Source of the DNA: Hygrocybe punicea
Taxonomy: Eukaryota; Basidiomycota; Agaricomycetes; Agaricales; Hygrophoraceae
Length of the DNA stretch: 64,000 nucleotides
Direction of reading: 5' to 3'
Assembly (NCBI GenBank): GCA_963556145.1
Contig: OY744465.1
Coordinates: 2,418,001-2,482,000, forward strand
The translations under genes and the position numbers were made by a program. Shown here in pieces: positions 4,477 to 39,318 of the stretch. Each line of letters begins with the position of its first letter. Positions within the stretch are counted from its first letter, which is position 1. Under the pieces are notes generated by a model that did not search any database, was not told the origin of the DNA, and saw only the letters and a program-made list of their open reading frames with translations.

Positions 4477-5076
4477 TAGCAGTAGTTAATCACCCACCAT
4501 AGCAGGTACATGTACGAGTAGTCGTCCTCCACGCTATGGCACAAGATGATATTGACTCTGGCACTCTTTCAAGTTCAGAGTCACAAGTATGTCCTTGATA
4601 CATATGACTCAAAGCCATATCTCGAGTCATTACCGGTGCTTGGGTCCAATTCCATCTGGCACTCGAAATCAAATGGTACTTTGTTCGTTTAAAGAAACAG
4701 TAAACCCCCAGGGTCTTGGGGATTGGGTTTGTTGGGAATTGTGGCCGAATAGTGGGTAATCCGTACCACGTGACCCCGGAACTCAAACACGCCGGCAACC
4801 CCGCCATAAGAAGGGTTTTCTTAAGACCGTCTTAAGACCGAAGCTCGACCAAGATGACCGAGTTGACCGAAAGGAGACCCACGAGCACGTGAGATTCTGG
4901 TTGGCAAAACATAAAGTTTGCGCACGAAACATAAAAACTATTTGGCACGATGCGACATAATGATATGGGGGTAATGACAGGCTAGAGTGAGTGTTAAAGA
5001 ACGTAAAAAATAATAAGGAACAAACGGAAGGACAGAAAAACCAGCCGCTGCATAAGAAGTTTATTGAAAAGGGATC
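4477..5076. other. Gene-free stretch between host genes and the first transposon-like gene
   Basis: No coding signal was found on either strand. Near 4,825 there is a short direct repeat (CTTAAGACCGTCTTAAGACCG). The 3' ends of the dehydrogenase (+) and the transposase-like gene (-) converge here, so both transcripts should terminate in this stretch. An element boundary might lie here, but no terminal repeat was recognised. Confidence 0.4.
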
Positions 5077-8000
5077 TTATCCACCGCAGTTGTTGGGACG
5101 GAGACAGTCAATTTGCAAGTAGCGCAACCCATCATATTCAACAAGTATTTCCGATGGAGTTGAGGAGGGTATGTCAAGGTTGAAAAGCTTGAACAGGCAC
5201 CGGCCATCCGGAACAATAATCATGCGGCTCTGGAGTAGCTTTGCAAACGCCATGTATTCCATTGCGAGGTCCCCTCCATCATCTCCTCGTATCACAAATG
5301 CCTCGTAGACCTCTCGGAGGGTGGTCAGGAATGCCATTGGGTTGAACGTCGTCCCAAGTTCAAAAATGCCTCGAGGCTGAGGCCACTCCGGTACCTGGTC
5401 AGTCTTCATGACTTGTTTGACTCCATCGGAACAATAACCCTTCTTATGGTTCTCCGCAGATCCTGTTGGACCAGGATACATAATCGTGCGACACCAAGTG
5501 CAAATTGCAGCCCTTCGCTGTTGGTTGACAATGCTTGGTCAGGTTAGTTGGTTTGGCAGGGATGGTACGTACAGATCTTTCTTTCTCTGCCTTGATCAGA
5601 GAGATGGCACCACAATGCCATCTCCAAAATGTTTCGGTCTTGCTCCTGGTAGCTGAATGAGAGCAAGACACATTAGGAGGTAAAGAGTTCATCGAGAAAG
5701 TACATACACATGTAGTCGTTCTTCAAAATTCGGTCGGAAATTTTGGTTTCCATGTCACTGAGGAGATCGACGAGTGCGCGAGGGTTTTTCTTGATTGTAG
5801 GACGATTTTTCCTGCCATTTATCGCTTCCAAATGTTCGTTATATTTCTGAGTAGCAGCTACCCATCTTTGAGAGGTCATGCTGAATGATACCCATCGATT
5901 TTCGAGACGCATGTCCATGAATAGTTAGAATTCATCATTGTCCTTGATCGACATTGATCGGATGTCGGTTCCTGTGGTAACTGAGAACAAGAGTTCTGAC
6001 CGAGTGAGATTCTGTTGATCTGGCAATACAAGTGGTGAGCAAAGCTTGGCCATTGTCATAGTTTGACTGATGTTTTGGGTTAGAGTTCCAGCGTGAGCAG
6101 GTGTGCAACGCTGGGGTTTGAAATACAAGTCCAGACCGGGTGATTGGCCTGGCACCTTTTTCGCCATATACTGTTGTCAATAACTGATATATATACAGAT
6201 AGGATGAATCTACCTGTGAGGTGGTACTCAGTTCCTGCGTGCACAATCGTTTCGAAATAGAATCTTCGGTCGAAGGCTGCAATTGATCGAGTTTTCTTTT
6301 TGAGATGAGTTTGGTGGCGGTGGTGTTGTTGATACAATCCTACAAGTAATTGTTGGTAAGTCCACCGAAATAAAATCGTTATGTACTCAACTGTGGATGT
6401 GTCCACTTGATCTTGGGATCGGAGTCCCGAAATCTCCAGATTTGTGACAATTGCTACTTCTGGGTCCACCTCGTTGTTACCAGCAACCCCATCACCATCA
6501 CTCGCCATTGCTTTCTCAGCGCTTCCTTCAACTGCATCTCTGCTGGTGCTCTCTCCCTGTCGCATCGTTTTCGTGCTCTTGGCCTGAAGTCAAGACTCAG
6601 CCAACCACTATTATTCAGGACATACCTTTCCGGTCACTTGCTTTGAATTTTCCACCTCTGATCGACTGACACTAGATTGCAGAGGTTGAAGGCGAAGCAT
6701 GGGATCAATTCCGAGGTCTTGGAGGATAGTATCAGCGTTTGAATCATCCAAATCATCTTCGTGGAGAGGTGCGTTGCTATTTTCTTCATTAATCTCCAGT
6801 AGCCCACCAAATGTTTCCATGTGCCGTGATACAACCAAGCCAAATGTTTCATGGCTATTGGCAACCTGCATCACTGGGAGAAGTTGAAGGCTTGTCTGGC
6901 CAGATTTGGAGCATTCCATTTTCGTGAGTTTATTCCACAGGATAGCGATATGATTTGTGAAACCAATGTGATGTGAGCCAAATGTTGACTTTACAAATGG
7001 CGTAGGTTTGGCCAGAGAAGATGCAATACGGAAGTTTCGGCGCAGCACAAAGTTGTGAGCCAGTGCCAGAAATACTTCAAGGCCACTCGCAAATGATTGC
7101 TGAATTGAATTCCAGCCTTTATGGGAGCCTTCAACTCGACTTCCGTCTGCGGCAATATCATTGCATGTCCTCACCAAACACCCTTTCTGTACGTGACGCA
7201 TTTGTTCTGCATGAACCTAGTGCTTGTTTGCTATCAATGATCTTGATCTTTTCTAGCATGCAACTGACCTTCGAAGCCGCCACAGACCACACATTTCCCT
7301 TCTCTGCCCACTTTTCATATGCAGCTTGCAATCTCTTCGTCTGCTCTTCTTTTCCCCAATATATAGCATATCCGAGTCCCTCCTTCCCAGCTCTTGCTTT
7401 CAGTATTGATTCGGTGATATCCTTGGCAACTGTACTTCTGTAGGGGTTCTTGACACCATTGATGATGACAATGAGATATCTAGTGAGAAGGTGAGTGCAA
7501 TTTCGAGTGTAGATCTTTCTCTGAAGATTTGCGGAGCAGTTGAGTGCTGGGCACACTCAATTGTCCCGCAGACCGTTCAGTTTTTATCATTTACACACCT
7601 CATCAAGAAATGATACGCGTCAAGGGCAACATGTATGTCTGGGCAAGCCTTCAAGATAGCATTCCGAACATGGCAGTAATTGTCGACAATGGCCATTTCT
7701 GGCAGTGGAACACCGAGGTCCTTGCAACGTTGACTATAACCGCTAAGTAGTTCTGTTATCTCATCTGCAGCAACAGTCTGGCCCATGCGCTGACCAGGAT
7801 TTCAAATTAATTAGCATGTTGTAACATGTTGCAACACACCCATGCTATGGTTTGAGTTTCCTCATTCAACACACTGAGAACACCCCCTTTCATCACTTTG
7901 GTATGTCTCTTCTGCTTGTCAACCACAGTAGCTTTGTTGGCTACTTGGAATGTGTTATCAAGTGATATAGTCTTGGCTGGTAAAAGTTTGGTGTAAGTGG

Positions 8001-17134: not shown

Positions 17135-17813
17135 ATCTAGAAACTGCACTGTCAAGTTTGGCTAGTATATAGGATCTGCTGTGAGTTTTCCTGATGACAA
17201 TCATGGGCCCAAAGTATTGCAGCTTTGCTTTTCGATTGAGAGACATTTCGATATGTGAGTTTCAGATGAGGACAAGGTTGCCGGGTTGGAAATCAAAGGT
17301 TTTGATCGTGTTTGCGTATTTCTCTTCGAATTGTCAGGCAGACACCAGCTGAGACTTGGTGAGTTTTTCTTTGACTCGATCAAGGTTGGCCTCTCGTTTA
17401 CGAAGTTGGCAGGTGCGGATGACTATGAGGTTGGTCATTGACATTGCATCTTGTGTTGGAGCCATATATGTAGCTTCAGAAAAGTTGAATGGAAAAAGCA
17501 GCTCTACTCCATGCGATGTAATAGGACAAGTACCTGAGGTTTTTGTGTGTGTGGTGACCCGTTCGGCCCAAAATACGGAATGAGTTACAGTGTGCCATTT
17601 CTTTTCATCCCCATCACAACTTTTCATAATGGCCTCCTGGACATCTAGGTGACGATGCTCAACAGGTCCATTCACTTGTGAGTTATACGGCAAAATGCGG
17701 ATGTGCCGGATACCATAGCAGGATGCGAGGTAGTCGAGTGCTTCCATGAAGGGTTTGCCATTGTTGGTAACAATTTCTTTGAGGGCGCCTCAATGGCATA
17801 AGATATCCTTGAA
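17135..17813 (-). pseudogene. Gypsy integrase, C-terminal half
   Basis: It continues the integrase core interrupted at 23842. Visible are FLFKDILC, LKEIVTNNGKPF, LDYLASCYGIRHIRI, YNSQVNGPVEHRH (with the Glu of the DDE triad) and VFWAERV, then GPMIVIRKTHSRSYILAKLD near 17,200. The second catalytic Asp, normally VTDNG, reads VTNNG. An in-frame TGA replaces the conserved Trp just before it. Both changes are G to A on the coding strand. Confidence 0.8.
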
Positions 17814-17822
17814 CAGGAATGT

Positions 17823-17949
17823 TAGACTGGTGACCGACCTTCTTATGTGAGAGGCAAAACCCCGACAGAAGGACTGGACTAGCTGGGCTTGAATTGGCAG
17901 GACAAGCATTCTCACGGTCAAAAAAGGAAAGCCATAATGGCTTCCAAAC
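17823..17949 (+). repeat. Left terminal inverted repeat of the 6 kb element
   Basis: It matches the reverse complement of 23715-23841 over 127 bp with no large gap. Perfect inner stretches include CTTATGTGAGAGGCAAAA and GGCTTGAATTGGCAGGACAA. Differences cluster in the outer 65 bp. Confidence 0.9.
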
Positions 17950-18057
17950 GGCTCCACCGGCATCGAGGTTGAGAATGAAATAAACAATATCTGAATGAAC
18001 TTAGAAATATTCTGAGGTATTATTCACGTAGCTGACACCAAGTTTGAGTTGATCAAT

Positions 18058-20886
18058 ATGGATCCCCCACTTCGGACACAATTCGTCCTCAACAACGGCC
18101 CTCCTAGGCAGATGATACGCTTCAGGAATACATTCGCATCTCCTACTGACAGCGGTTATAGTTCTTGTACCTCTCAGCCCTCCCCTTCTTACCCATCGAT
18201 CACTTTTGCCAATACACAAGTGGAGGAGTCGGATTTAGAGCATGAACATTGTCATTTTCATCAAGCTCTCGAGGAGCTTCACCTGGGAAGAGTTGGACCA
18301 GTCGATCTACTCCTCTTCGTCCTTAATCCTAATATTCACAACAACTTCCGCTATCAAAAATGGCTCTACCGGGCGAGGGACAATGATGAGGAAAGTTATA
18401 GTAACCCTGAAAAATTCAATGAAATTCTCAACGCACTTTCGGTCACTTGTGAAGGCCGCCAGAAATTCAAGAATTGGCTGAAAGGTCCTGGCTTGGACCT
18501 AGTTCATGAGATTGTCGATCAAGAGATGGATAGCGTCAAGAAACGTTTCACAATGGGTCTCAACGACATCACACCCAGCTACATCGATTCGTGGTCATTG
18601 GAATTGAAGGCTTCATCCATAGCGATCGAAGCAGCGCCAACTCTTCTCAAAATCCTTCTACATGCCGGTCAGACTGAGGAAGCCAAAGCGAAGAATAAAG
18701 TCAAGAAACCAGACACAGTATGTTTCTGTGGCTAGTTTTACCAACTTATCTAATGCATGTAGCATACAGATCTGTCATATTATCATCACCAAATTGGCAT
18801 ACTCTCGATCAATGCGGAGCATCAGTTTTCCTGCCATTTTCACGATCTTCCAGTGGACAACCGGTTGTCAACACCAAGTCATTGATATTCTACATCGCTG
18901 CGGCCTGTCAGTCTCATTCAACGCCGTTATGACAGCCATACATAAACTTAGCGAAAACTGCCTTGAGCTGGCTCAGATAGTCTCTTGGCAGCCTCACGCA
19001 CTATGCTGGGACAACGTCAATATGCAAACATCGATATTCGTTGAACAACGACCTGACGCACCATCGAAAGTTCAGTCTGGCACTTTTGCAGTCCTTTACA
19101 AGCTCGAAAACCTTGACCGCAGCTGGATGTCACTCACCCCGATCCTTGACCATGCAAAGATGGCACCTGAACTCGAATTTGATCGGCATGTTAAACCGAC
19201 ATTCACTCAGCTCAACTCTACGCTTTTTCAGATGCAAGTCATCATTGTCCGCGTTCTGTCCACATATTTTGAGGTGTTCAATGTGTATTCCAACTTCCCT
19301 AAACTACAACACCGAGCTTGTCACCCACTCCCACTGCGAAAGACTTGAACGTACCCTCTTCCGATCACCACCATTAACGAAGTGACTGTTGCCAGAACCA
19401 TCAGGATCTGGGAGACTATATACGAGCATCAGCTCGAATCAACTCATGATGAAATGAAGGATATCGCAGTCCTGAGTGTCAACGACCAGCTTACCAATGC
19501 CTGAGTGCGTGGAGCCAAAGTCACCCGAAGCAAAGACCTCAACACTTTTCTCCAACTTGACAACATTCAGCTTGGGTACGGAGTCTTCCACAAATGTCTA
19601 AATCTCGTATGGGCACTTTTCAAGATCCATCAAGGTGCGATCAATCAGCTCGGCAGTCTCAAGTACTTTTTCGCTCTCCTTGAGAAGACCTGCCTTTCAA
19701 ACGACAAGCCTGACTACCATACTCTCCTCGCTGCCCTTACACAGATTCTTCACGGCCTCGTATTACAATCATGGTGCCTAGAATGCGGTTATTCATCTCT
19801 CGAAGAATTCGCAAAGGCGGATCTGACCCCACAGACACTCCTTGACATTTCGCTTCGGATAATCCAGAAGTATGCAACCCCACTGCCTGAATGACCAAAA
19901 CCGAAAGCCAAGAGAGCCAAGAAAGTGGGCACAAAGGTTCAAGATGCGGACAATGCTAGAGAAGAGATAGTCACCGACGATGATGAAAAGGAGAACAATC
20001 CAGAGCCCAATATCAAGTCGATGAACCCCCAGGACAAGTCGACAAGCCCCCAAGATGAACCGACCTTTTATGGTGATGATCCCCAACACGACATCGCCAA
20101 CTGCAATATTTGCATCCTTTTCCGCGACCTACTTTACGTTGCTGAACTTGTCCGGGCTACGTCAGACGGTGATTGGGGACGAATTGAGGACATTCTTGGT
20201 CAGCTCACCATGATGTTTCGAGGAGCAGGATCGAACAATTACAGCACAGAGTTACTGCATTTTTTGCACAACCTGAGACTTGTCTGGGGAGATGACTTCG
20301 GGTGAGTAATACTTTCCTTAAATGTATATTTCAGCTCAATAATATTTGTATTAGTGACATTATGCACAGCTGCATGCTCATCAATCCATCTGGACTTCCA
20401 GGTCACTGGATGGGGATTGACATGAATATCGAACATCTTATTGGCTATATCAAATTCCTCTTTTCCGCCAAAGGCATGTACGCCAGCTGGGATTGACTAG
20501 GACAGATCAGTGCCAGCATCAACTATCTTCAGAAGGTGAAGAAACAAGTCGGCCTTGCATTGCGAAGATACATCGGATCATCCCACACAAATCCTGAGAT
20601 GTTGCAACTCGTCAAGAAGGTTGCAGACAAAGCATGCGATGTTGATCTCCTGTTGTACAAACCAACACATGAATGTTATGCAAATGCAGACATGAAGCCG
20701 GTATTGGACATTCTTAAAGAGGGGGAGAAGAAGTTGCACTCATCTTTGATCAAGACCTTCAATGCTAAGCTGAGAGCTTTGGCAGTGGGTCGGATGATGG
20801 ATCTCAGAGGGGAGTCATTTGAGGAGCAAGATGACATTGCAGCACTGGACTTTGGTAACATTACTGCGATTGAAGATGAAGATTAG
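18058..20886 (+). pseudogene. DUF6589 domain protein with three nonsense codons
   Basis: The ATG is at 18058. Exon 1 is 18058-18717 and exon 2 starts 18770 after a GTATGT intron; an intron near 19,270-19,380 and one at about 20,302-20,352 follow; the stop is at 20886. Key blocks: LSVSFNAVMTAIHKLS, WDNVNMQTSIFVEQ, SVNDQLTNA-stop-VRGAK, YGVFHKCLNLVWALFKIHQG, DYHTLLAALTQILHGLVL, NPSGLPGHWMGIDMNIEHLI, SWD-stop-LGQIS. These match the mushroom DUF6589 family. TGA codons at 19502-19504, 19892-19894 and 20494-20496 each sit where relatives carry, or could carry, Arg, so CGA to TGA is the simplest cause. The conserved D-N and D-Q-L-T motifs could be an RNase H-like core (inference). Function unknown. 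Confidence 0.75.
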
Positions 20887-20944
20887 GATACAAATACAAT
20901 TCGATGTGACTATGAAGGTTATCCTATGAATACAACTGATGTTC

Positions 20945-23593
20945 CTATGTTTCTCCCACTCTTGTTCTTGGAAGGTTTGCTTGATCAATGAAGGGCTCGC
21001 GTGCTGGAATCCGGATGACAAGCCTGGGTGGTTTCAGGTGGTTGATCTGGTAGATGACTGATAAAATGGAATCAGCAAACTGTTCCCGCCATACAGGTGT
21101 TTCAGACAGGAGTTCTTCAACCTGCAAAGCTGTTTTAATCTTTGACAGCAGAGTTTCAGCAAGGAGTTTGATTTTGTCAGGGTGGAGGATCCAGTCAGGT
21201 GATGCCAGCACTAGATGAGGGTTCAATTTCAGAATATCGGATCGCCATGATTGCAATGCAGCCTCGATTGGTCCACGGTCCTTCACAGGCCATTTTTGGG
21301 TTCATTTCTGAGTCCTTTTGTCGGCTGGGGCAGGCCCCATCCAGATTGTTCCAGGGAGCCACGCATGAAGATTAAAACCATCGTTGTGTCAATCACAACA
21401 GTGAGCTGTCACAAAATCACATGCTGAAAAGAGTGAAGAGCTTGCAGTGATCAAGTATGATCTGAGAAATACCTTCAGGACACTCATCCTTGAGATATTT
21501 CACATGACCTGAGTGTAGACAACTTGAGGACTGAATACATTTGATCAACTCCACACCGGTGCGCTCCATTTTTGTCCGGTGTTTCTTGGGCAGGATGGAG
21601 AGTGGGCGATCTGGATCTTCTGCAAGTTCTTCGGCAGGAATCTTGCTGAGATCAACTTCCTTCACCCAGGGTTCATACATGATCAAGAAAAGTGACTGAT
21701 GCTCCCAGTTTTGCCCATTTTGCCCACCACGTTGAATGGTTTTCATTTCGTCTGACGCGATTCCATACTGGACAACAATATCTGCTTGTTTGAAGTCGAT
21801 TCCAGACTCCATACCTCTGCATGTATGTAGAATCTGACATTCACCATTTTGGAAGGCCTGATATGTCTTCTCGGAATACGTAGTTGACATGAGGCTGTGA
21901 TAGTGCCTGATAACTCCCGTGCTTTGTATCTTGGTGGGCAAGAGACTGTCCAAGTATGCAGCGGCATCACTGCACTCCTTCGTGTCATCGTGAAATACAA
22001 TCGTCAAGGGAATTTGACCGGTATCATTGAGAGAAGAAGCAGGAGGGACAAGAGAGTTGAGATTGCGCAGATCGGAGAGTGAGCCAATAATTTGATGAGT
22101 CACATACATGATGTTAGGGCAATTACTGCTATGCTTCAAGAAGAAGCAGTCCGGAGACAACCAGAGCTTTTTCTTGATAACAGGAATCATGTGAGGAGGC
22201 ATGGTCGCTGAGAATGCGAGAACAGAAGTTGACTTCGGAAAGAGAAGGCGGATGCAATCGAAATGGCCATATGCAGGTCGAAAGGCAGCTTGACCATTGT
22301 AGAGGCTCCGGGCCCTCTGGACCCGAATCCTCTTCATATCCCACTTCGTCCTTGTCCATTCCCATTCACGTATCACCGATTCCGCCTGTTTCCGGTCCTT
22401 TCCGTCAATTCCGCTCCGGATTCTGCCTCCGGAATCGTTCATACTCAAGATGCAATGTCTCTAACGACCCGGAATCAGTACGTATATAGTTACATATGAT
22501 ATATCTTCGTTTCCCGTTACTTAGTACATAGCATCACTCCTCCTATACTCCGCTCCACTCCACTCCTATCAGTTACAGCCTTCGGTTGTAGTACATAGTT
22601 ACTAGAGCACAGGATCTCTCCCAGTAGTATAAAAGATGTACTCTTATACTACAACCATATAGAAAAATACAGGTTATCGCTCTCCTTCAGTTCTATTTCT
22701 TAGTCCTTCCTTCGTATCGTCTCCATATTAGTCTTCGTAACTCCACTCCCTACACTTCCCCTCTGATCCGGAACCCCTGGATTCGGGTTGGATTGATTAG
22801 ACACTACAAAGACTAAACTCCTCTGATCACTTCTTAGCTGATCACCCTTTCCATAGATTCCCATTCGGGTCTACAACCGAACTCGCTGTCACACCATACT
22901 TTGCGATTCCAGCAGTGTAGACATTCTGAGCTTCGTCGATGAAGATCCTTTTGACGCGGTTGACATATTTTCTATCAAGTGCACAAAGAATCGCACAAAA
23001 TCTTGTGAGATGTCCTTCATGTTTCCCCAGTTGTTCCATTGTTGTGATCACACAGCTATAATTTCCATCCGCAACACCCTGGTGTTGAAAAACATAATGA
23101 TGCGGTATCTAGAGGCCGTCAGAAGGTACTTGCCTGCCAAAATTGTGGTCGATCGGGTGTGTCTTCATTGATCACAGCCGCAGTGATTGAAAAGCATCGG
23201 ATTGTGAATGCTGTAGATGTTTGAGGGGAATGACAAGTATTGTGTACTCTTGAGGACGTAGAATCGCAAGCATAATCATGATAAGAGTTTTTCCAGAGCC
23301 AGTTCCAGAGGACACAAGACAATCACGACCAGTCAGAGACTCTAGAACAACTTGAAGCTGAAATAGCCGAGGTAAGACCTTTCTGTGAGCTTATACACAA
23401 GTGGACAAGCATGGAGGACATCAGCTTTTTCTCTCTCAGATAATGTGTTCAAGAATGTCTGGTTGGGAAAGCAAGCATTTGATGAAAGACCAGTGGCAAG
23501 ATCAACCAGGGCAGGTAATTTCATGTTGAGAATCATTGGAGCAGCTGCAGTTAGACGAGTCATGAAGTCCAGGGTATCTGGGATGGCTTCCAT
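20945..23593 (-). pseudogene. RecQ-like DNA helicase interrupted by a solo LTR
   Basis: Read from 23593 downwards: an N-terminal part; Walker A VSSGTGSGKTLIMIMLA near 23,290; LVIPLKHLQ; motif II IFIDEAQNV (DEAQ instead of DEAH) near 22,945; then a 596 bp solo LTR (22298-22893). It continues with motif III VLAFSATMPPHM, IVFHDDTKECSDAAAYL, RHYHSLMS, HTCRGMESGIDFKQADIVVQYG, and TIQRGGQNGQN (motif VI-like, with Gln-Arg-Gly). A Cys-containing region and a C-terminal domain with LASPDWILHPDKI end at 20945. This is the RecQ-type 3'-5' helicase layout. It is convergent with the DUF6589 gene; the stops are only about 60 bp apart. The copy cannot make full protein. Confidence 0.75.
22298..22893 (-). 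repeat. Solo LTR A inside the helicase gene
   Basis: The LTR runs from TGTGACAGCGAG (at 22893, minus strand) to CCTCTACA (at 22298), with TG...CA ends. Exact 4 bp repeats CCAT flank it (22294-22297, 22894-22897). It matches LTR B (27191-27801) along most of its length, in opposite orientation. A TATAAAAGATG segment near 22,628 could be the LTR promoter. No internal retroelement sequence is attached. Confidence 0.9.
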
Positions 23594-23714
23594 GGATGGG
23601 AGCTTATTTCTTTCAAGGAGTGACTTGTATAACTCAATACTTTATTCCTAGGATATGATTATTCCTTGGTATATGCCTCCGGCAACTCAAAACTTTAATT
23701 CGATTGAGGTTTTG

Positions 23715-23841
23715 TTTGGATGCCATTATGGCTTTCCTTTTTTGACCGTGAGAATGCTTGTCCTGCCAATTCAAGCCCGGCCAGACCAGTTGCTCTGTCG
23801 AGGTTTTTGCCTCTCACATAAGAGCAACGGTTACCGGTCTA
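23715..23841 (-). repeat. Right terminal inverted repeat of the 6 kb element
   Basis: This is the reverse complement partner of 17823-17949. It is followed directly by the second copy of the 9 bp target duplication. Confidence 0.9.
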
Positions 23842-23850
23842 CAGGAATGT

Positions 23851-26800
23851 GCCGATGGTCGAACCGGTCTCATGGCTTAGCATTCAAAACTCGGGGTAAG
23901 CAGACAGGGAGCAATGGGCTTGGACAATGTATTGATAGCTGCTGGATCAGGGCATAAACATCATGTCGATGTATTCTTTGTGGAAGAGCAAGGCTGGTGT
24001 AGCGACGGTCGGCGGAATGTGGTGATAACGCATTTGCCATACTTGGCACTGATGGCAAGACTGGATGTACCATTTAATGTCATGGTCGAGATGTGGCCAC
24101 CAGAAATGGTCAAGTAGCCAGGCACAGACAGAGAATATGCCTTTATGGCCAAGGGAGTCATGAGTGTCTTTGAGCAATTGAAGCCGGCGGTTGGGCGGTA
24201 TGACGAGCTTGTGTTTCCCGTGACGGTCTTTATGCCAAAGCTTGTTATTGGTGACGAAGAACTCAAGAGAGTATTGTAGGAAGAGATGGTATTCTTCATC
24301 TGTGAGGTTCATGGGTCGGGTTAGATCTTGTAACCAGGTCTCGACGAGGGCAAGACGAGCATCAGCTGAGCACGCTTTATTGGATCGCATTATGTCGGAA
24401 ACAGTTTCCTGGTTTGTATAAATGAGGATGGCTGGTAACTCTTGGAGCTGGTCTGCAGTGGTACGGCAACGGCCACATATGGCAATCGGCTTAGATGGCA
24501 TGGGGATGGGTCGGTAGTTAATGACTTCCATAAAGAAACCATAGGAGTGGTCAAGCAAATTGTCAGAGTCATCAATTTCCTTGGGGTCTTCTGCAGCGTG
24601 GGGGTGTCTGGAGAGTCCATCGGGTGCACCGTGTGCAGAAGCAGGTACATGAACGAGTCTAAAATCAAATAGGAGGACACCAGCTATCCATCGGTTGATT
24701 GTCACATTGGGTTGGATGTCGGGATTGTTGAGCATCCCTTTTATATATTTTGTGTTGACTTCAATGGTGAGGTTGCGGACACCAATAATAAAGATCCGGT
24801 AGGCACAGAGGGCCCTGAAGAGGCTGTAGAGCTTGAGCTTAGACTGGGAGTATCAGGCTTCGCGTTCGTCCCATGATATTGAACCAAAGTGATTTGGGTA
24901 ATGTTTTCCATCGGTGTGGATTTGCATGAGAACAAAACCAACTCCGAGGACAGAGGAATCAATGGTGAGTATGACTTCCCATTCATGCATGTAGTCGATG
25001 GTGTGCAGCACTGGCGATGTAATGATGGCATTCTTGAGGTAGTCTATGGCAGTCTCTTCTTCTTCACCAAATTCAAAGGGTATTCCTTTGCAGGTAAGAT
25101 GGACGAGGGGTTGGGAGTGGAGTGAGAAGTCTTTGATAAAGATGCGCAAGACACCGCAGATACCAAGGAAGGCATGGACTTCAGTGAGGTTGGTCAGCAT
25201 TGGCCAATCACGAATCTTCTGCACTTTGGACTCATCAGCTACTCATCCTTTGTATGTGCATTGTTGGCCAACAATGATGACTGAGGGTTGACAGAGTTCG
25301 AGTTTCTGGCCATTGAAGGTACCGCCAACATAGCGGAAATGCTGAATGATGCGGTTGACACCTTGGAAGTGTTCCCAGATGAAACATTGGATTGCCAGGT
25401 TATCGGGTATGGTGTCGTAGGTACCGTTGGGTTGTTCACTTGTTTAGTGGGCCAGTGCTGTGCATGGCATGAACGAGTTCTTTTTTTTCCCTCCTCACTT
25501 TCATCATAGCAGCCTCTCACCATAGCAACATAAAAAGTAGAAAAAATAAAACTGCACAGCATGTCTCGACCTCCTCTCCCACTGTCATGTCTTCTTTGCT
25601 TCATCATTATACAATATTCTCAGCCAAAAAAGAGAGCAACATGTCAACTGTCAAATACAACTGTCTTCAAACAGTATGATAACAATTGACTTACAATTGC
25701 TTAACCCCACTTCTCCATAACCTTGCTGCACAACAGATGATAACATGAAGACAGCTGTGCTTGAGTGGGCCAATGTTGGCATGAACAAAGTCTTGTTTCT
25801 GTCATTGGATTTTTATTTGTCTGATTATTACAAACATCGATGAGTGATTTTGCTTGAAATATATAATTAGCATATAATATATACAGCGATATCACATTGA
25901 TTTATATGTTTTAAGTAAGAATATCATTATATCATCTGAGTTACACTGATTTCTGCTTATACGGCTAATATTTCTATATATAGTAACAGTGGTCACATGT
26001 GACTATGACTCCTGTGATCACCTCAAAATTTAGCATATATGGTGTAAAATTGCCTTATATGGTTAGACTGGTCACATGTGACTGTCACCATTGCGATCAG
26101 CAAAAATTTGCTATATAATATTAAAAATTGCCTTATATGGTTAGATTGGTCACATGTCACTGTCACACCTGATCCGAAATGATAATATTAGTCAGCAGTT
26201 CAATTTTCAGCTGATTCTGATAAGAATTGAGACCAGTACGAATATTTTGAATATAATTGGAAGGTAATTTGTCTTTTTTGCAACAACCCATATTTGGATG
26301 CTTATGTAAGCTTGTCCACACATGGCCCCAACTGTATCTGATTTTCCAGTATCAGAAGTAGAATCATATCTCTTGCCCAAAAAAATTTTGTCTATAGGCG
26401 ATCAACTTTATCAATTAATCAATTAATTAATTAATTACGAATCCTCACTGAACCAGGTCTGATAAAGAACGAGTCTTTTAATAAATTAAAAGAACTCGTA
26501 ATAGCAGGTTGGAGGCCCTTTGACGGGAATATCGTCCATGTACGGAATGGCAAGGTGTGGGATCTTGTCATGGAGGATGTATGTGGAGTCACCATGTAAG
26601 ATCTGAGGGGAATTAGTGTACCCCATAGCGATCCACGTAAGTTGGAGTGTTCCGAGTGGGGATTGAAATGTAATATAGTCTCAAGAGGAGGGATGGATGA
26701 GGTGTTGGTCGAAAGAGATGAAAAGATCGAAAGAGGCATAGCAAGAGTGGCCTCCGAAGGCCTCAGCCAAGTGCTCAGTCATAGGTGGTATGGCGGGATC

Positions 26801-39285: not shown

Positions 39286-39318
39286 TAGATTGGTGACCGT
39301 CCCTCTTATATGAGAGAC
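39286..39318 (+). repeat. Second terminus-like copy of the 6 kb element's inverted repeat
   Basis: The 33 bp starting TAGATTGGTGACCGTCCC match the first 33 bp of the left repeat at 17823 at 28 positions without gaps. The match stops inside, where element-specific sequence would follow. It lies about 200 bp upstream of the SDR start codon. Confidence 0.5.

Follow-up and report, generated by a model that had tools for sequence, protein, structure and literature searches.

The window analysed here is a stretch of 64,000 nucleotides from the Hygrocybe punicea assembly GCA_963556145.1 (contig OY744465.1, positions 2,418,001-2,482,000 of the forward strand), and all coordinates below refer to it unless a locus elsewhere is named. 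It contains a 6019-bp element (17823-23841) with two genes, one encoding a protein with the domain DUF6589 and one encoding a RecQ-like helicase, which with a probability of about 0.8 is a DNA transposon of AcademH type, present here in decayed form, that would be autonomous if it were intact. This filing was chosen because a predicted DDE transposase, a RecQ-family helicase and a 9-bp target duplication occur together in a fungus; it fits by anatomy, with AcademH taken from its descriptions rather than from a reference sequence.

The element is bordered by an exact 9-bp target site duplication (CAGGAATGT; left copy 17814-17822, right copy 23842-23850) and by inverted ends of 127 bp on the left (17823-17949, + strand, starting TAGACTGGTGACCG) and 128 bp on the right (23714-23841, - strand, TAGACCGGTAACCG read inward). 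These ends are identical at 113 of 127 aligned positions with one gap, and the terminal bases of the element are TAGACYGGTRACC. Both the exact duplication and inverted repeats of about 127 bp had been reported in the first-pass annotation and were recovered here. When the genome was searched with 323 bp of each flank (40 of 240 and 40 of 237 candidates scored, the window itself included), both flanks matched side by side at 20 other places with no element in between. At all 20 of these paralogous places the two flank matches overlap by exactly 9 bp, the overlap being partly extrapolated at three of them, where the left match is 3 bases short, and at two, where the right match begins at base 2. 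They are empty sites with a single copy of the target, and hence both the insertion and the 9-bp duplication are demonstrated. The mobility of the element is well supported, and its earlier description as a self-contained mobile element is borne out by these sites together with two more complete elements that carry exact 9-bp duplications.

The host sequence broken by the insertion is, judged by its H2C2 integrase domain, a Gypsy-like retroelement. The Pfam domain Integrase_H2C2 was found in the open reading frame (ORF) to the right of the element (23947-24735), and a Pfam scan of the left-hand ORF (17334-17747) gave no domain match. The interrupted Gypsy integrase proposed in the first-pass annotation, from which the label Gypsy is taken, agrees with the domain on the right-hand side. 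Elsewhere in the window, an isolated 31-bp match at 39286-39316 is 87% identical to the left end of the element; a partner end for it was looked for and not found.

The DUF6589 gene region lies on the + strand (18058-20886; bounds approximate, introns unmodelled), with homologue matches at about 18499-20670 and a match to the PF20231 profile that covers model positions 9-410 over 19181-20586. A role as DDE transposase is plausible for DUF6589, since an RNase H-like fold is predicted and a D-D-E triad is conserved. In two AlphaFold models (pLDDT 88 and 90) an RNase H-like core is interrupted by a helical insertion, and the best structural matches of these models are the P-element and Hermes transposases. 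The triad is near-invariant among 50 homologues and is retained in the window copy. Its predicted codons, all on the + strand, are those of the first catalytic Asp at 19010-19012 (CWDNVN; tblastn alignment to D226 of P0010, Asp in 47 of 50 homologues), the second catalytic Asp at 19484-19486 (VNDQLT; aligned to D395, Asp in 50 of 50) and the catalytic Glu at 20249-20251 (YSTELL; aligned to E596, Glu in 48 of 50 with two gaps). Since DUF6589 is predicted to fold like a DDE transposase and has the matching residues, the earlier impression that the element holds nothing like a known transposase was not supported. A PDB sequence search with DUF6589 gave three matches up to E 10, none of them convincing (best E 0.048, a cysteine desulfurase), and two DUF6589 proteins had no match among the NCBIfam profiles. 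In the literature searched, DUF6589 is nowhere mentioned and PF20231 appears once, in an unrelated nanophotonics paper, so that within this literature the transposase role seems to be unpublished. What looks new is therefore the assignment of DUF6589 as a transposase and not the class of transposon.

The helicase gene region (20945-23372, bounds approximate) contains a P-loop (GTGSGKT), a DEAQ box and Helicase_C, and is placed on the - strand by a PF00271 match; P-loop and DEAQ box were located by tblastn inside 22908-23372. The two genes stand tail to tail, as the first-pass annotation had proposed. Relatives of the helicase have WRN, BLM and RecQ as top structure matches, and three of them score 158-208 bits against TIGR00614, all under the curated cut-off of 219.8; on these similarities the relatives are assigned to the RecQ family. 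The window copy of the gene is split by a solo long terminal repeat (LTR) which is foreign to the element (22298-22893, 596 bp, TG...CA ends, target duplication CCAT), and the LTR-derived part of the helicase ORF occurs in dozens of copies across the genome. Because the helicase is split in this way and the DUF6589 frame contains in-frame TGA stops, the window copy is, as read from its sequence, inactive; the first-pass annotation had noted neither of these defects.

Genome-wide, at least 103 DUF6589 matches in 72 clusters and, with two queries, at least 66 helicase clusters were detected; only part of the candidates was scored in the genome searches (102 of 162, 64 of 224 and 118 of 824), and the counts are therefore lower bounds. 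The pairing of both genes was counted with all 103 DUF6589 matches, all 85 matches of one helicase query and 27 of the 119 matches of the other, whose remaining 92 cover only the N-terminal, solo-LTR-derived part of the query ORF and were left out. A convergent helicase was present within 8 kb downstream at 49 of the 72 DUF6589 clusters, two clusters showed another arrangement and for 21 none was found, while about 0.8 clusters with any arrangement would be expected by chance. A smaller test with short flanks detected the helicase tail at 17 of 30 loci, including two (L033 and L047) scored as none in the larger count. The linkage of DUF6589 and helicase is systematic and both genes belong to the element, contrary to the possibility raised earlier that the two are usually not neighbours elsewhere. 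As a separate observation, 16 of the 66 RecQ-like helicase clusters did not come out as the closest partner of any DUF6589 match in an 8-kb range; these could be relics or independent helicase genes.

The association extends to other species. Fifteen of 61 helicase proteins, from 14 named species, are encoded on a contig whose length equals that given for a DUF6589 protein from their own species, a count which drew on 120 of 445 DUF6589 proteins and on 66 long ones and in which a shared contig does not equal adjacency. Consecutive locus tags, and hence perhaps true neighbours, were seen in two pairs, from Paxillus involutus (12088/12087) and Pleurotus djamor (g13520/g13521). Among 15 DUF6589-helicase pairs the pairwise distances of both proteins correlate (r 0.89; 0 of 10,000 permutations), a correlation that may partly reflect host phylogeny and in which a single species contributes two of the pairs.

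The genome holds two more complete elements that carry both genes, one on C35 (5720 bp, exact 9-bp duplication CTTTGCGTA) and one at C6:851944-857411 (5468 bp, exact 9-bp duplication TGCAAATGC); in each, the two ends pair at 10 of their first 14 bases. A better-scoring inner candidate on C35, whose 8-bp repeat is self-complementary and falls inside the inverted repeat, was set aside. The search with the left end gave 13 matches in the genome, among them three end-only derivatives of 87-90 bp (L011, L013 and L014) that are flanked by perfect 9-bp duplications. Copies with related ends are present elsewhere in the genome. In total, six insertions, namely three complete elements and three end-only derivatives, carry 9-bp duplications of varied sequence. 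A fourth end-only derivative (L065, 76 bp), which came from the motif search, lacks matching flanks. In the genome the terminal motif TAGRCYGGTRACC was matched 50 times and its reversed control 26 times. Ten of the 50, two of which are the window's own ends, face outward at no more than 3 kb from a DUF6589 or helicase locus, against 0.21 under random placement (calculated over 13 contigs, the sizes of two being estimated).

Not every locus yielded a pair of ends. A scan of L050/L051, L052 and L053 for inverted ends with 8-10-bp duplications found none, a second end was searched and not found at the loci on C34, C1 and C3, and at C7:1439354 one end only was examined. L050 and L051 are a recent pair of DUF6589-helicase copies with 98.8% identity; 52 transitions, of which 43 fall at CpG, and a single transversion separate them over 4736 aligned bases, a sign that their decay is largely C-to-T type change at CpG, and no 9-bp duplication was found at their shared bounds. 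L051 additionally contains a 1438-bp insertion (4988-6425 in the reverse complement of L051) that is devoid of the element's ends; it is bounded by TAGTG...CACTA and shows a duplication of 8 bp (TGCCAGGG). In L053, sequence resembling the start of this insertion comes after the shared part.

In the proposed mechanism, the DUF6589 protein would, according to its predicted fold and residues, bind the inverted ends, cut the element out and integrate it into target DNA with strand joints staggered by 9 bp; repair of the stagger would then yield the duplication. The helicase may be an accessory for opening or processing DNA, either at the ends or at the donor gap; this part is a guess. The short end-only derivatives share the termini and the 9-bp duplications, which suggests that the machinery can act in trans and that about 45 bp per end would suffice. 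These findings offer a likely function for a Pfam domain of unknown function which is widespread in mushroom-forming fungi (445 DUF6589 proteins were found). DUF6589 proteins and the adjoining "hypothetical" RecQ-like helicases most likely belong to transposons and not to the host, which bears on how genes are counted, helicase phylogenies built and repeats annotated in these fungi. The element also provides a testable system for asking why a RecQ helicase of its own might be required by a DDE transposon.

Among other readings, it is conceivable, and in our view unlikely, that DUF6589, as a DDE transposase, has no relationship to Academ, so that the element belongs to a separate, undescribed superfamily whose likeness to AcademH is limited to duplication length and helicase. 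The absence of DUF6589 from the literature searched would agree with this, as would the outcome of a search with a lengthened query restricted to proteins of about 840-2670 amino acids: all 66 proteins obtained carry PF20231 and no other precomputed domain, and none is from an animal, the named ones being all fungal (from genera which we take to be Agaricomycetes), although animal or other distant relatives could escape this search, which requires shared exact words. AcademH, by its title, includes animals as well as fungi. Moreover, a Cys-rich (Cys8) zinc finger is regarded as a defining feature of AcademH, and in two alignments cysteine reaches at least 60% at only three columns (A1) and two columns (A3). 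On the other side stand AcademH elements in fungi with a helicase and 9-10-bp duplications, described in passages of PMC10045372 and PMC10799480, and fungal Academ copies with recQ_fam in those of PMC6416283, both the anatomy and the type of host being alike. The more far-reaching version, in which DUF6589 and an obligate convergent RecQ helicase form a helicase-dependent mushroom superfamily apart from Academ, with the helicase essential and both genes co-diversified across Agaricomycetes, is likewise improbable.

The placement among AcademH elements was also weighed against a Mutator-like (MULE) origin, suggested in the first-pass annotation. Long inverted ends and a duplication of about 9 bp are typical of Mutator, and this part of the resemblance stands; a MULE domain, however, was absent from all 50 DUF6589 homologues scanned with hmmscan (Pfam, E up to 0.1). 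The gene pair recurs at 49 loci and also in other species, where the divergence of its two members is correlated; this speaks against a composite that used its ends to mobilise host genes it had captured, since capture by a single family would hardly give such a pattern. Both variants are very improbable. For KolobokH, the Kolobok type of fungi that carries a RecQ helicase, the probability is smaller still. Passages of PMC9587614 describe it as encoding a RecQ helicase and as known from fungi only, which would suit the present element, and they give TTAA (4 bp) as the Kolobok duplication, in contrast to 9 bp of varied sequence at the six insertions here; the helicase there lies downstream of the transposase and is convergent here. 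In length and sequence of the duplication KolobokH does not fit.

Compared with known systems, the element shares parts of its anatomy with several groups. Helitrons have neither inverted ends nor a target duplication, and membership was rejected on the basis of both. The P element and hAT (Hermes) resemble DUF6589 in the predicted RNase H-like core split by a helical insertion and in the D-D-E residues; they differ in having no helicase, no sequence similarity to DUF6589 was seen, and since they make 8-bp duplications and not 9-bp ones, membership was likewise rejected. A conserved His just past the strand following the second Asp (GWFH in DUF6589) is reminiscent of the C/DxxH signature named in PMC9587614, except that the C or D position is G. 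The same source provides the likeness to KolobokH as a fungal DDE transposon with a RecQ helicase. Mutator-like elements agree in long ends and 9 bp and differ by the helicase present here.

The closest agreement is with AcademH. This is reportedly, by the title of Kojima (2020, Mob DNA 11:15), a branch of Academ that encodes a helicase and occurs in animals and fungi, and with such a lineage on record since that year, the undescribed transposon class envisaged in the first-pass annotation was not borne out. Transposase and helicase are encoded together in AcademH, as in the window element, the two other complete elements and 49 of 72 loci, and the transposase is of the DDE type, here according to predicted fold and conserved triad. 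Passages of PMC10045372 give duplications of 9 or 10 bp for AcademH and of 3 or 4 bp for AcademX and tie the difference to helicase versus nuclease; here exactly 9 bp were found at three complete elements and three end-only derivatives, with one further derivative lacking matching flanks as exception. According to PMC6416283, most Academ copies of fungi contain domains like PF00270 (DEAD) and recQ_fam and frequently appear as host genes in annotations, and their RecQ-type SF2 helicase has its counterpart here in the sub-cut-off TIGR00614 scores and the WRN, BLM and RecQ structures. The host range is shared as well, since AcademH is recorded, according to PMC10799480, at low copy number in Basidiomycota, Ascomycota and Mucoromycota.
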